Origin: Chitinophagaceae bacterium | GTDB lineage: Bacteria > Bacteroidota > Bacteroidia > Chitinophagales > Chitinophagaceae | DNA: 64,000 nucleotides | Reading direction: 5' to 3' | Assembly: GCA_016786845.1 (NCBI GenBank) | Contig: JAEUVB010000016.1 | Location: 62,001 to 126,000 of the forward strand | In this document: piece after piece, positions 25,650-31,258 of the stretch | Position numbering within the stretch: position 1 is the first letter of the stretch | Layout: every line of letters starts with the position of its first letter | Made by a program: the position numbers and the translations under genes | Notes under the pieces: generated by a model | Told to the model about the DNA's origin: nothing | Seen by the model: the letters and a program-made list of their open reading frames with translations, nothing else | Database searches by the model: none

Positions 25650-26747
25650 TCACTTTTTGACTAGCGACTGCATCCCATAAAATTCAATAGACTTTTCCTT
25701 TAAGGGATTGGTGCTCCATTCTTCCCATTCGCAGGTATAGGGGTTGTAGCCACATTTGAGTGGGGCTGAATACTGATCTTCGGGATTTTCGAGATAGGCA
25801 CGGCAATCGGTACAGATATGACGGAATTCGCAATCCTTACATTTTGTGATTTCATCTTTCTTGATATGCCATACTTTTTGAAACTCCGGATTGTTGACCA
25901 CATCAATTAATTTGGTATCCTTGATATTGCCATAGCTTTTAGCCATGCTAGGGCAGTTTTTTATTTCGCCTAGCCTGTCAACAGATAACTTTCTATTAAG
26001 ACAAGTATTGTGAGAGAGGGACTCGCTAAAATGTGCCTGATTTATCGCAAAAAAAGAAGGGCTGATCAATCCACAACATTTTTCTGATGTAAAATCTTCA
26101 GTGATATAGTTGACAACAAACGACTCAAGAATGAGCTTATGCTGCCTTTCTGGAGAGTTATAAAAAGTAACTTCACGTACGCTTGGGTTGCGCGAAAATA
26201 TTTCCAAGTAGTTTAATTTTTCAGTAAGCTTAGAGTAGTCTAAAAGGAGTTGTACAAACAAAAATTCGCAAGATGAAATTACATCTAATAATTCAAAGAA
26301 TGCATCATGACTCATATTTCTATAGAAACTCCTAATTTGGATATACTTACAATTTAAAGAAGAGAGCTGCATCAATAAATCCTTTAAATCAAATTGATTA
26401 TTCTCACTCAAGTCTATTACCGAATTCTGTATTTTTGAAAAGTCAAACCAGGAATCTTCGCTAGTTACAAAGCCGGTAAGAATATTTTTATTTTCAAATT
26501 GAACTATTAATTCGTTCTCTATAAGAAAAATAAAATACTCCTGAATCACTTCTCTATCTTCCTTTTCAAAAAAACTAAACACACATTCAATTCTCTCGCC
26601 ATTGAATTGCTCTATAACCTTTATTAAATCCAAAGGGATTATATAGTAATTGAAATTTTGAGTATCTATGATAATGCTTCGATTAATTCCTTTGACGCAT
26701 CTAGAAGTGCCAAGTAATTTAAAATAGTTTGATTTATTTATGGTCAT
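25650..26747 (-). CDS. SPASM-domain peptide maturase of a grasp-with-spasm type system
   Basis: Start placed at 26747 (MTINKSNYFKLLGTSRCVKG); the frame extends 13 residues further. 365 residues. The C-terminal third carries a full SPASM-like cysteine set: CLNRKLSVDRLGEIKNC, then CKDCEFRHICTDC, then CGYNPYTC. SPASM domains bind auxiliary Fe-S clusters in peptide-modifying radical SAM enzymes. No CxxxCxxC radical-SAM motif is visible in the first 250 residues, although FYRNMSHDAFFELLDVI and IQIRSF look like remnants of the barrel. The family known as SPASM maturase of grasp-with-spasm loci fits best. Last gene of the AT-rich operon; overlaps the small gene upstream by 14 bases. Confidence 0.8.
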   Translation of the reverse strand: MTINKSNYFKLLGTSRCVKGINRSIIIDTQNFNYYIIPLDLIKVIEQFNGERIECVFSFFEKEDREVIQEYFIFLIENELIVQFENKNILTGFVTSEDSWFDFSKIQNSVIDLSENNQFDLKDLLMQLSSLNCKYIQIRSFYRNMSHDAFFELLDVISSCEFLFVQLLLDYSKLTEKLNYLEIFSRNPSVREVTFYNSPERQHKLILESFVVNYITEDFTSEKCCGLISPSFFAINQAHFSESLSHNTCLNRKLSVDRLGEIKNCPSMAKSYGNIKDTKLIDVVNNPEFQKVWHIKKDEITKCKDCEFRHICTDCRAYLENPEDQYSAPLKCGYNPYTCEWEEWSTNPLKEKSIEFYGMQSLVKK

Positions 26748-26931
26748 AAGAAAATACTCTTGATAACAGTTTATAATTTGGCACATGTTTGATTAGTGTA
26801 TTATGTTTAGACTTAGAGATGTTTATTTTTAGCGTTTTCTTCTCCAAACCAATTTCATCATACTCTAACATCCTAAAGAATAAAGGAAGATTAGATATCT
26901 TAATAAATTGACTAAACTCTTGTTTTTTCAT
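26734..26931 (-). CDS. Small protein coupled to both maturases
   Basis: 65 residues, MKKQEFSQFIKISNLPLFFR ... HVPNYKLLSRVFSYDHK. I do not recognise it. Its start overlaps the end of the ATP-grasp gene by 20 bases and its end overlaps the start of the SPASM gene by 14, the pattern of translationally coupled genes, which is why I take it as real rather than a shadow. It has no signal peptide, no Gly-Gly leader and no cysteine. It could be a small partner (recognition element or chaperone) of the modifying enzymes, or a second precursor. Confidence 0.6.
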   Translation of the reverse strand: MKKQEFSQFIKISNLPLFFRMLEYDEIGLEKKTLKINISKSKHNTLIKHVPNYKLLSRVFSYDHK

Positions 26932-27871
26932 AAAAATATTGTGCTATTAATTTTTCTAAATATAGATTGCAAACCTTACTTAAGTGGCCAAATTGACCAA
27001 TGGGATTAATCTCCAAAAAACAAAATAATCCATCTTTGTTTACCAATAAATCTACCGAACCAGTTTCAATATCTAATTGTTTTACTAATTCAATTAAACT
27101 TTTTGAGATGCTTTTTGGCAAAACATATGGTGCATAGCGTACCTGATTTAACTGCTCTTTCTTTTTCACATCTACTGCAGCATAAGAACTAATTATTGCC
27201 ATCGAAAATACCTGCTCAAGAAATACAAATGCTCTAATTTCAAATAAAGTATCGAAGTATTCCATAAAAAAACTAGGGGCAAATTCCGATGGAAGACTAT
27301 CAATAAATGCTGTGTCAATTTTTTGTGTGTAATACTTATAAAAACGTTCTTCAATACTAAAACCCACACCCTGGCTGAAATTTTTTAGAATTATTCCTTT
27401 TTTTCTATGTTCCAAATTAAATTTGGTCAATTCACTTTTCGAAGTTGTTACAATAAACTTAGGAATTCGCAAACCAATTTTTTCTGCTTCTATTAAGACG
27501 TCCAATCTATTAATGAAATTCCCAAAATAACTTCCAATTTTAACTGGACATTTTTCCAAAGCTTTGTGAAAGAAAAACAAACAGGATTGCCTTTCTGACT
27601 CAATTAAGCTCTGCAACATATGAGCCTTTGATGCAAATTTATATTTCACACGTTCAAATGAAAATTCACCACGACGATACCAAACACCCTTAACTGTACT
27701 ACTAGAAATCTGTTCCCCGTTGATACTTATAGTGTAAACTAAATTATCAAACTTTGTAAAAATTACTTTAGATTCGGGAGTAACAACTATATATCTTATT
27801 CCATAATACTGCATCCAGTATAGAACATAAGAAGTTGTGAAATCTGTATTGTCCGAAAAAATAACTACCAT
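26912..27871 (-). CDS. ATP-grasp peptide maturase of a grasp-with-spasm type system
   Basis: 319 residues. N-terminal part VVIFSDNTDFTTSYVLYWM and the sequence KGVWYRRGEFSF resemble MvdD/MvdC-like ATP-grasp RiPP maturases, which form amide or ester crosslinks in precursor peptides. ATP-grasp features: KGIILKNFSQGVGF (ATP loop), FEIRAFVFLEQVFS (metal site region) and the C-terminal DLLVNKDGLFCFLEINPIGQ with the Glu-x-Asn metal ligands. It overlaps the secreted-protein gene upstream by 7 bases. AT content is clearly higher than in surrounding housekeeping genes, suggesting acquisition. Confidence 0.86.
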   Translation of the reverse strand: MVVIFSDNTDFTTSYVLYWMQYYGIRYIVVTPESKVIFTKFDNLVYTISINGEQISSSTVKGVWYRRGEFSFERVKYKFASKAHMLQSLIESERQSCLFFFHKALEKCPVKIGSYFGNFINRLDVLIEAEKIGLRIPKFIVTTSKSELTKFNLEHRKKGIILKNFSQGVGFSIEERFYKYYTQKIDTAFIDSLPSEFAPSFFMEYFDTLFEIRAFVFLEQVFSMAIISSYAAVDVKKKEQLNQVRYAPYVLPKSISKSLIELVKQLDIETGSVDLLVNKDGLFCFLEINPIGQFGHLSKVCNLYLEKLIAQYFYEKTRV

Positions 27872-28968
27872 TCCATTTCTGCTAATTTTTGACTTCCCAT
27901 ATTTTCGATTTTATAGATTACATCATTTTTCCGAACGATCTTTACAAATTTATCGTCCATAATATTTATAGTTTGAATGCTGAAACTAAGTTGATTATCC
28001 GAAACACCAAAACAAATTAGCAAATTTCGAATTGCTACCAAATAACTAGCCTTACTAACAGACAAAAAGTCATTTGAATTTATTATGATTCTAATTTTCG
28101 CTTTTGTATAAAGTAGGAATCGTGATAAAGCATAAAGTTGGGCAATTCTTAATTTCATTGAATGCTTTGGAGAAAGCCCAGGTAAACTACCATAACCAAA
28201 TAGTTCATTTGGGAAAAATTGAATGTAGTTCGATTCATAATTTATAAACTCTCCGAAAGTTGCTTCTCCTTTCTCAAATGAATTTATAATGATACCTCTA
28301 ACACTATCTGCAATAACTGGGTCACTATGAATTTGATGAATCAAAAAAACATATAAATTTAATTTCATATCGAAAAGTCCACCCTCTCTGGGTTTAATAG
28401 TCTCCAAATAGTAATAAGATGGCCATTTTGGCTCTTGGGATAGGAATTGCCAAAAAGTATTGCTATTCTTAGAGTCAACGGCTGCTTGTAGGGTAAGATT
28501 CTTTATATTGATGTTTATGTCCTGACTTTTATAATATTGGTCTCTGTATTTAAGCTCAATGATGAATTTACTTATTATCTCTTTTGCCTTAAATACCGCT
28601 TCTGATCTTTTGTGTGAATCGATTATCCCTAGCGGTACATCCACAGCATGCATCGCTGAAATCAATTTTGCTTTTAGTATTTTGTCCATATTATATGTCA
28701 AACAATATGAAAATAGCAATCTAAGGTGATCCGGGTCATTCTCTCTAATGATGAGCTTAATTATACTATCTTTCCTTATGGACTTGTATAGTAAAATTTG
28801 AAATAATTTTTTGCTTTTGTTAAACTTCTGAATATCTGAAAATGGATGCAATAAGTATTTGGAAGGGTTGGTTGTACTATTTTGTGAGTATAAAATGTCA
28901 TTTTCGCACAACATCAAAGCAATTAAAGAACAAATGAAAAATGTTAATATTCTTAGGCTGGTTTGCAC
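27865..28968 (-). CDS. Secreted protein of unknown function in the peptide-maturation operon
   Basis: 367 residues with an N-terminal hydrophobic signal (LRILTFFICSLIALMLCE). I do not recognise the family. The region AKIRIIINSNDFLSVSKASY followed by LVAIRNLLICFGVSDNQLSF has the spacing of an OmpA-like peptidoglycan-binding domain in degenerate form, but this is only a suggestion. It lies between the candidate precursor and the ATP-grasp gene, overlaps the latter by 7 bases, and shares the AT-rich composition. A role in export, anchoring or processing of the peptide would fit the context. Confidence 0.65.
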   Translation of the reverse strand: MQTSLRILTFFICSLIALMLCENDILYSQNSTTNPSKYLLHPFSDIQKFNKSKKLFQILLYKSIRKDSIIKLIIRENDPDHLRLLFSYCLTYNMDKILKAKLISAMHAVDVPLGIIDSHKRSEAVFKAKEIISKFIIELKYRDQYYKSQDININIKNLTLQAAVDSKNSNTFWQFLSQEPKWPSYYYLETIKPREGGLFDMKLNLYVFLIHQIHSDPVIADSVRGIIINSFEKGEATFGEFINYESNYIQFFPNELFGYGSLPGLSPKHSMKLRIAQLYALSRFLLYTKAKIRIIINSNDFLSVSKASYLVAIRNLLICFGVSDNQLSFSIQTINIMDDKFVKIVRKNDVIYKIENMGSQKLAEMEW

Positions 28969-29099
28969 AGATTTATAATACCCTATGTTTGTTAAACAAT
29001 GCTTTGAAATTCAAGTTGTAATTTTGTAATATTTTGCAAAGCCCAAAAGGGCAAATAACTATATACGTTTGTCGATTTATTTTTAGAAAAATAAATTCA

Positions 29100-29417
29100 C
29101 TATGGGTAACCGTGAAAAGATTTTGTATAGCCATCATAAGTAACGGTTGCTGACCAATCACAGTCATACATAAATTCTTTTGTTAAACTAGTAGAAAAAG
29201 AAGTGGGCCCATGTCCCACTGTTGAAGAAATAGTCCCCGTTCCTGTGCATGTTGAGATATCACCTGAATAACTATACGCTGAACCATTTATTGTACCGCT
29301 TCCACCTATCGGTATTCCCAATGGAACACCGGAACTACCTGAACCTCCTGATATTCCACTAATTTTTGAATTAGCAAACTTCGAACCTTTCAATGATTCC
29401 AATTTATTCTTGATCAT
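29100..29417 (-). CDS. Candidate ribosomal peptide precursor with GG-type leader
   Basis: 105 residues. The N-terminus MIKNKLESLKGSKFANSKIS, ending in GISGGSG, has the form of Bacteroidota natural-product leaders (LESL..SKF...KI..I.GG). The putative core is about 80 residues, very rich in Gly, Ser and Thr, with two cysteines (ISTCTGTGTI and MYDCDWSATV) and a C-terminus of YTKSFHGYP. Such residues are typical targets of ATP-grasp crosslinking only if acidic; here the core has few Asp/Glu, so the chemistry may differ. It is the best precursor candidate in the operon. No dedicated exporter gene is seen nearby. Confidence 0.68.
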   Translation of the reverse strand: MIKNKLESLKGSKFANSKISGISGGSGSSGVPLGIPIGGSGTINGSAYSYSGDISTCTGTGTISSTVGHGPTSFSTSLTKEFMYDCDWSATVTYDGYTKSFHGYP

Positions 29418-29453
29418 AAAATAAAATTTATTGTTTGATTAAAAACTATTTAA

Positions 29454-30251
29454 TTATGCATACTTCCAATTCAAACCATCAATAATAATACTAAAGGTTT
29501 CCGTTACTTCAGTAGAAGCACCTATACGGTATGAACTTTGAAGCAGAAAATCAAATGGCATGGTAAAATTGATGGTGGAAGGTACAATCGCTGTTTGGCG
29601 GTTGGCGGGAATTTGTATTTCTGAATAGAGGTAATAGGTGGTACCGGCATCGGGGCTTATAAATAAACGGATCATGCCTTGGCTGTTATTGCCTTGTGCC
29701 TTTACGTGTATGTTTTCTAAAGCTGTACCATTGTCTCCGGCTGTCAGTATTCTTACAATAGCACCTGTACCATTCAGGTTCGCATTTGCTGTAGTCACTT
29801 TATCAAAACCGTTATTGGCCACCCTGTTCATGTGATCGCAACAGGCTGCAGTTGCCGGATATTCCCAATCCAACCCTTCTGCAAATACATTAAAGGATTC
29901 CGCTTTTTCGGTACTCACAATGATGCTATTTCCTGCTGCCAAGGTAATGCCTAAATCGGTGAAACATTCAAAGGCTGGCTCTACGGCAGTAGGTACGCAG
30001 GCAGGAATGGGTACTTCCTGTAGCAATTGGATATTGCCGGACAATTTTAGAAAGAACCTTACCATACCTTGTGTGGTAGTCGCTATGGCTTTTATTTTTA
30101 CTCTATTGACTAAAGTGCCATTGGCAGCACCCGTAATAAGGGTATAGGTTGTACCTGTGCCATCTAAATTGGTATTGGCTGCTGAAATTTTGACTATTCC
30201 TGTATTAGCGGTGAGCTGGGAATAGTCGGTGTAGTTGAAAGTGGTTTCCAT
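29454..30251 (-). CDS. Two-domain repeat protein at the head of the peptide operon
   Basis: 265 residues made of two similar ~125-residue domains: the first with NTNLDGTGTTYTLITGAANG, TTTQGMVRFFLKLSG and VFAEGLDWEYPA; the second with NANLNGTGAIVRILTAGDNG, NNSQGMIRLFISPDAG and IIIDGLNWKYA. The pattern is all-beta, like a jelly roll. Each domain ends in the same GL(D/N)W.Y motif. No signal peptide, and cysteines occur only in the first domain and linker (ACCDH). Not recognised; 36 bases before the precursor on the same strand. Composition is more GC-rich than the maturation genes, so it may be a separate addition. Confidence 0.72.
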   Translation of the reverse strand: METTFNYTDYSQLTANTGIVKISAANTNLDGTGTTYTLITGAANGTLVNRVKIKAIATTTQGMVRFFLKLSGNIQLLQEVPIPACVPTAVEPAFECFTDLGITLAAGNSIIVSTEKAESFNVFAEGLDWEYPATAACCDHMNRVANNGFDKVTTANANLNGTGAIVRILTAGDNGTALENIHVKAQGNNSQGMIRLFISPDAGTTYYLYSEIQIPANRQTAIVPSTINFTMPFDFLLQSSYRIGASTEVTETFSIIIDGLNWKYA

Positions 30252-30598: not shown

Positions 30599-31258
30599 AT
30601 GAAATATATTCTTCTGTTTAATCTTATCCTTCTTTCCTGCCAGGTCAACTCCGAAAAAAAACATGAGCGTGATACGCCTTCAACGGTTACCGCAGCGGCC
30701 TATGCCAAAGCCATAAAATCGACCGACAGTTTGAAAGCCAAATGCCGGCTGATGTATTGGAAAGATGCGGGGCAATGTTTTTCTACATTTATTGAAAACA
30801 GATTACTACCCGCATGGTATGGCACGGTATGGGATTTCAATGGCACCACACAAGTGCCGGGGGAAGGCAAAATTGCTTGCGGGTATTTTGTGACTACGGT
30901 ATTGCGCGATGCCGGCGTTGATCTTCATCGGGTGAAGATGGCGCAATGTGCATCGGAGATGATGATCAATCATCTTACGCAAGATAAAGAATATTATAAC
31001 CGGATCTCGTTTGCTGATTTTATCCGCAAGGTTAAATCCCACGGACCGGGGTTGTCGGTTATCGGTCTCGACAATCATACGGGTTTCTTACTCTACGACG
31101 GTGAGGAACTCTACTTCATACATGCATCTTATATCGGTACGGGCAAGGTAGCCAAAGACATTGCTGAAGAGAATATCATCTTGAAACAATCAGCTTATAA
31201 GGTGGTGGGGTATTTGAGTCAGAGTGAGGGGTTTGTGAGGAGGTGGATGGGGGAGTGA
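30599..31258 (+). CDS. Lipoprotein with NlpC/P60-like cysteine peptidase features
   Basis: 219 residues with a lipoprotein signal (MKYILLFNLILLSCQVN; Cys at residue 14). IACGYFVTTVLRDAGVDLHR has the Cys-containing helix start typical of papain-fold NlpC/P60 or related enzymes; later IGLDNHTGFLLYDGEELYFI contains His in the right order, followed by HASY. This suggests a periplasm-facing, membrane-anchored amidase or peptidase, perhaps acting on cell wall. The exact family was not recognised. Start at 30599 is supported by the signal peptide. Confidence 0.72.
   Translation: MKYILLFNLILLSCQVNSEKKHERDTPSTVTAAAYAKAIKSTDSLKAKCRLMYWKDAGQCFSTFIENRLLPAWYGTVWDFNGTTQVPGEGKIACGYFVTTVLRDAGVDLHRVKMAQCASEMMINHLTQDKEYYNRISFADFIRKVKSHGPGLSVIGLDNHTGFLLYDGEELYFIHASYIGTGKVAKDIAEENIILKQSAYKVVGYLSQSEGFVRRWMGE

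Follow-up and report, generated by a model that had tools for sequence, protein, structure and literature searches.

The closest described relatives of the operon analysed here are the grasp-with-spasm systems, which Makarova et al. (2022; PMC8939145) place in a Bacteroidota branch of ATP-grasp enzymes (branch 5) and which follow the same operon logic, with the gene for a small "LPL" protein immediately ahead of the SPASM gene and with a "cluster 23" protein that is secreted. Among the graspetides described by Carter et al. (2026; PMC13097080), group 14 has a SPASM protein, and DUF6624 was noted in several groups. We compared with these systems six genes of the window, i.e. the whole stretch of 64,000 nucleotides that was analysed. 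The six genes form a grasp-with-spasm graspetide cluster, which is divergent yet fits the published class as a regular member and probably corresponds to group 14; the surprise that it had caused in an earlier note mostly dissolves. Altogether, we are fairly confident that it is a horizontally acquired grasp-with-spasm graspetide operon, in which the SPASM protein GwsS is an RRE-like leader-binding scaffold and a jelly-roll protein an accessory.

Operon architecture and genomic context

The six same-strand genes described in the earlier note are all present, on the minus strand. The first, rep265 (29454–30251, 265 aa), encodes a tandem jelly-roll of phage-tail type. It is followed by the genes for a precursor peptide (29100–29417, 105 aa) with the leader KLESLKGSKFANSKISGISGG, a putative divergent DUF6624/"cluster 23" protein with a hydrophobic N terminus (27865–28968, 367 aa, GTG start), the ATP-grasp peptide macrocyclase GwsG (26912–27871, 319 aa), a putative LPL-family small protein translationally coupled to both maturases (26734–26931, 65 aa) and GwsS (25650–26747, 365 aa), which displays a predicted RRE-like N terminus, a barrel without the radical-SAM Cys motif and a SPASM domain, and whose gene has an in-frame ATG at 26786. 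Read from the sequence in the order of the genes just given, the spacings are 36 bp and 131 bp, followed by overlaps of 7, 20 and 14 bp; the last four genes thus overlap, and the picture of mostly overlapping or nearly adjoining genes holds.

The ATP-grasp and SPASM genes had been read as a grasp-with-spasm pair, and both products match the models of that class. GwsS scores 308.8 bits against TIGR04193 (E 5.7e-92), above the cut-off of 175, while for GwsG TIGR04192 is the best family (208.8 bits, E 1.2e-61; next family 92.7 bits) but the score falls just under the cut-off of 230. A search of named genomes yielded 77 related loci, 78 with the window; the ATP-grasp family adjoins a SPASM gene in 78/78, and GwsG is a member of an iterated GwsG profile found at every one of them. 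Its solved relatives are 5ig9 (2.4e-21), CdnC and AMdnB, with which the C-terminal D..FLEINP region is conserved. What counts against our best explanation is the position of GwsG below the curated cut-off, the remoteness of the LPL and DUF6624 assignments, the weak overall model of GwsS and the scarcity of Asp and Glu in the precursor core.

The GC content of the maturase block is 0.26–0.34 versus 0.428 for the whole window, which bears out the AT-richness noticed earlier; the 265-aa gene (0.425) and the precursor gene (0.387) are less AT-rich than this block. The ATP-grasp gene has a single copy in the genome (3.64 Mb, 97% complete), and a convincing copy was found in none of 13 congeners, the one partial match (G011) reaching 19 bits only. 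The distance between the end of the operon and the stop codon of a pabA-like gene is 17 bp, and the pabA-pabB block, whole or in part, is common to several congeners, which carry different genes beyond it. Because of the low GC, the lack of a convincing congener copy and the junction with the conserved pabA-pabB block, horizontal acquisition of the operon, as suggested before, is likely.

A divergent neighbour gene at 30599–31258 of the window encodes a peptidase- or amidase-like protein with conserved-looking Cys and His residues (Pfam AmiA-like, E 0.15). It was considered as a processing peptidase, but it is also carried by three congeners that lack a convincing grasp-with-spasm match, and it is therefore no specific partner of the operon.

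GwsS, precursor and accessory proteins

The SPASM proteins of this group are often described as radical-SAM/SPASM enzymes. We scanned the first 230 residues of 83 full-length GwsS homologues for the CxxxCxxC radical-SAM motif and found it in none (0/83). In a Pfam scan of nine family members the SPASM domain was present in 9/9 and no radical-SAM domain was matched. The structural model of GwsS is poor overall (pLDDT 59) and good only in the first two thirds, the N terminus being well modelled. The fold predicted for residues 6–92 finds its matches almost only among RRE domains of RiPP enzymes (residues 6–86, Z up to 8.8), including PbtF (Z 8.8, 78 aligned residues, 2.3 Å), lasso B1 (Z 8.8), TbiB1 (8.7), NisB (8.0) and MccB (7.7), and the modelled N terminus thus has the RRE fold. 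Residues 106–246 match barrels, including that of the radical-SAM enzyme EpeE (Z 7.0), a likeness that may simply reflect a common arrangement; a PDB sequence search with the GwsS alignment gave no match.

Since GwsS has no CxxxCxxC motif and its N terminus is modelled as an RRE, it is probably the leader-binding, pseudo-radical-SAM partner of the ATP-grasp. The alternative is a genuine radical-SAM/SPASM enzyme that would modify the peptide a second time, for instance by a thioether; it could draw on the SPASM domain, on the Cys residues in the core and on the treatment of branch-5 SPASM proteins as radical-SAM-kind enzymes in PMC8939145. We nevertheless consider it improbable given the motif count of 0/83 and the lack of a radical-SAM Pfam match in nine members, and radical-SAM chemistry was rejected for GwsS on the missing motif. 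Should GwsS prove to be an RRE scaffold instead of a radical-SAM enzyme, the whole "maturase" family has been wrongly described, and it becomes possible to test which enzymes Bacteroidota graspetides minimally require.

Leaders that follow the pattern MKLESLKxxKF...GG are common among the survey loci. With a leader profile built from the other loci, the window precursor being left out, the 105-aa ORF ranked first of 415 window ORFs (E 0.0043); it has the family leader motif and the double glycine, as expected for the Gly-Gly leader precursor proposed earlier. Its core is rich in Gly, Ser and Thr and contains Cys, and it has few Asp or Glu residues, so that the ring pattern is not predictable. 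Neither this gene nor the 65-aa gene gave a useful match in Pfam, NCBIfam or PHROGs.

The 65-aa gene lies directly before the SPASM gene, which is the position of LPL in this class, and in most of the 77 other loci the LPL family sits between both maturases. An iterated profile seeded with the 65-aa protein reached 62/78 loci. Against a profile built without the window, the protein obtained an hhalign probability of 5.3, while 100 decoys stayed at or below 0.22, and the LPL motif and a degenerate FYKPISKI tail aligned in order. HMMER alone gave no significant match (E 16), and the assignment therefore rests on position together with profile comparison, which point to a divergent LPL-family member, remote in sequence. 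Across survey loci L041–L117 the LPL C termini carry a strongly conserved FYKPISKI motif, which is absent from the features quoted from PMC8939145. One of these grasp-with-spasm loci, L043, is of Bacteroidota type and stands in a record titled Phycisphaerales; its LPL protein has the same sequence as the one in the Chitinophagaceae record L041, and a binning error is probable.

Across the survey, the family of secreted neighbours is Pfam DUF6624, which we equate by description with "cluster 23" of PMC8939145. A DUF6624-like gene is present in 58/78 loci, in 44 of them directly upstream of the ATP-grasp. The 367-aa protein matched a profile of 81 such neighbours, built without it, at E 1.4e-4, a match hidden by the default HMMER filters and visible only with the unfiltered profile; a single-sequence search gave no match, and the protein lies below detection by the Pfam DUF6624 model itself. 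By hhalign it reached a probability of 31.6, with 59 of 60 decoys at or below 0.45 and one at 97, probably a missed member. The lipoprotein signal is a by-eye judgement. By profile comparison, the protein is a divergent, remote DUF6624/cluster 23 member. The earlier note had called the additional genes unusual and had made co-occurrence in other genomes their test. They do recur, the frequencies being those given above for LPL and DUF6624-like genes and three other genomes in which a homologue of the 265-aa gene precedes grasp-with-spasm genes, but the 65-aa and 367-aa proteins are, according to PMC8939145 and the survey, standard accessories of the class.

The lack of a visible exporter extends to the whole genome for the C39 type, in which no C39 peptidase was found; a C39 protease to cut the GG site is thus missing, and this counts against our best explanation. 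A C39 gene lies near 42/77 other survey loci and adjacent to none of the genes in 35/77, and a C39 peptidase/ABC exporter is therefore frequent, not universal, and not class-defining. One could take the operon for a degraded remnant that has lost peptide production, given the C39-less genome and the divergence of its ATP-grasp, LPL and DUF6624-like proteins. However, every frame is open, the genes are tightly coupled, the conserved ATP-grasp and SPASM residues are kept and 35 other loci likewise lack an adjacent C39 gene; we hold such decay to be quite unlikely.

The tandem jelly-roll protein and its RiPP neighbours

The model of the 265-aa protein (pLDDT 90) consists of two eight-stranded beta-sandwich (jelly-roll) domains. 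No match was obtained in Pfam, NCBIfam or PHROGs or by a PDB sequence search with the jelly-roll alignment, and the Foldseek PDB matches are generic beta-sandwiches. The best viral structure match is a 132-aa phage domain (A0A5Q2WA97, TMt 0.84) and the top VIA match a phage cement protein (Z 10.0). A scan of viral contigs with the single 265-aa sequence gave no match, and with the jelly-roll alignment 91 stretches were matched. Relatives with a single domain abound in IMG/VR contigs, where Gly-rich, tail-fibre-like genes lie beside them, and they also occur in the tail region of phage Pam2. Its similarity to the phage domain, in sequence as well as in fold, makes the protein a phage-tail-type tandem jelly-roll.

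Homologues were found in 9/296 and 14/378 family genomes (overlapping samples), i.e. 3–4%. We inspected 14 loci, excluding the genome of the window and the grasp-with-spasm-seeded survey, and in 6/14 the jelly-roll gene stands directly upstream of a RiPP operon on the same strand. Three are lanthipeptide operons, with LanC/LanB and a Cys-bearing small peptide (G469, G821, G1000), two are grasp-with-spasm operons (G601, G960) and one has a radical-SAM/SPASM maturase with a small peptide (G656). A RiPP operon on the upstream side was seen in 0/14. If 2% of random genes precede a RiPP operon, a figure that is assumed and generous, the chance of 6/14 is about 2e-7. The remaining eight loci have no recognised RiPP operon, and unknown proteins are encoded downstream.

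Locus L278 (genome G960) has the gene order of the window, with jelly-roll, precursor, DUF6624-like, ATP-grasp and SPASM genes; BLAST of the 367-aa, 65-aa and precursor proteins of the window against it gave no convincing similarity, and the order is therefore shared while these three sequences are not. The same jelly-roll gene pair occurs, in two species of one genus, in L278 (9788–10996) and L279 (9742–10987; genome G1000), where it precedes a grasp-with-spasm operon in the former but a LanC/LanB lanthipeptide operon in the latter, a difference that suggests that the RiPP part has been exchanged. In L052, from the seeded survey, three jelly-roll copies stand before the precursor. None of the four grasp-with-spasm loci with a jelly-roll gene (window, L052, L170, L278) has a C39 gene nearby (Fisher p 0.047, weak and post hoc).

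These genes could also be hitch-hiking phage fragments beside a hot spot for mobile operons, with no role in the peptide pathway, a reading that we find on balance doubtful though far from negligible. In its favour, the domain commonly occurs as a module of phage tails, and 8/14 loci are without a recognised RiPP operon; on the other hand, the gene is intact, on the same strand and always on the upstream side, usually 13–60 bp from the precursor (once about 150, once about 320). It precedes RiPP operons of three classes, in cases that span several genera and two families, and it is duplicated or triplicated, not decayed, in L052, L170, L278 and L279. The wider proposal, that the jelly-roll is an unnoticed, phage-tail-derived RiPP accessory independent of class, encoded just ahead of graspetide, lanthipeptide and radical-SAM peptide precursors and serving for binding, display or delivery where no C39 exporter gene is near, and that GwsS is the RRE-bearing pseudo-radical-SAM partner of the ATP-grasp, is put forward tentatively, as a combination that we would not expect to hold in full.

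Other features were observed around the jelly-roll genes. In loci without a RiPP operon, the proteins encoded behind them (L165 8565, L166 7062, L277 10432, L282 362, L283 839) often start with an S-x-T-D-G-like stretch (MNRQFLNSVTDG, MNINLFSSPTDG, MKRESMHSPTDG), which may be a leader or targeting signal common to them. Genes resembling LuxR-type response regulators are situated near the jelly-roll in five loci (L052 3232, L165 6854, L166 4149, L170 6624, L279 11127), and large homologous proteins of unknown function follow it in L142 (9294–12410) and L169 (8648–11281), with 28% identity over 768 columns.

Proposed pathway and comparison with described systems

We propose that the 105-aa precursor would be made with its N-terminal leader, which the RRE-like domain of GwsS may bind so as to present the peptide to GwsG. 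Using ATP, GwsG would join Asp or Glu side chains to Ser or Thr (or Lys) in the Ser/Thr-rich core, giving the side-chain ester or amide macrocycles expected of a graspetide-class product. GwsS would act as a pseudo-radical-SAM scaffold with SPASM iron-sulfur clusters, not as a radical-SAM catalyst, and the LPL protein may stabilise a complex of GwsS, GwsG and peptide. Once the product is exported, the DUF6624-like protein could act on it outside the cytoplasm. The tandem jelly-roll may be an operon accessory independent of RiPP class and, as a guess, could bind or carry the peptide by a route independent of C39. If three RiPP classes do share this phage-tail jelly-roll as a partner, it would mark unrecognised peptide operons and suggest an export or delivery route without C39 transporters. 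Neither the jelly-roll association nor the RRE reading of GwsS is described in PMC8939145 or PMC13097080; these belong to the open-licence literature, and an earlier description is possible.

The operon resembles the branch-5 grasp-with-spasm systems of PMC8939145 in its ATP-grasp and SPASM genes, in the LPL gene before the SPASM gene, in the secreted cluster-23 (DUF6624) protein and in a GG-leader precursor of private sequence; it differs in the genome without a C39 transporter, in the tandem jelly-roll gene at the 5' end and in an ATP-grasp slightly under the TIGR04192 cut-off. It would be akin to rosaritide, among the partner-protein-dependent graspetides of PMC13097080, provided that the ATP-grasp requires GwsS as its partner, although the rosaritide partner is PPIase-like whereas the candidate here is an RRE-SPASM protein. 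With phage tail and cement jelly-rolls (7dou; A0A5Q2WA97) the 265-aa protein shares the domain fold and detectable sequence similarity, whereas it has two fused domains and is encoded on a bacterial chromosome, in modified-peptide operons.
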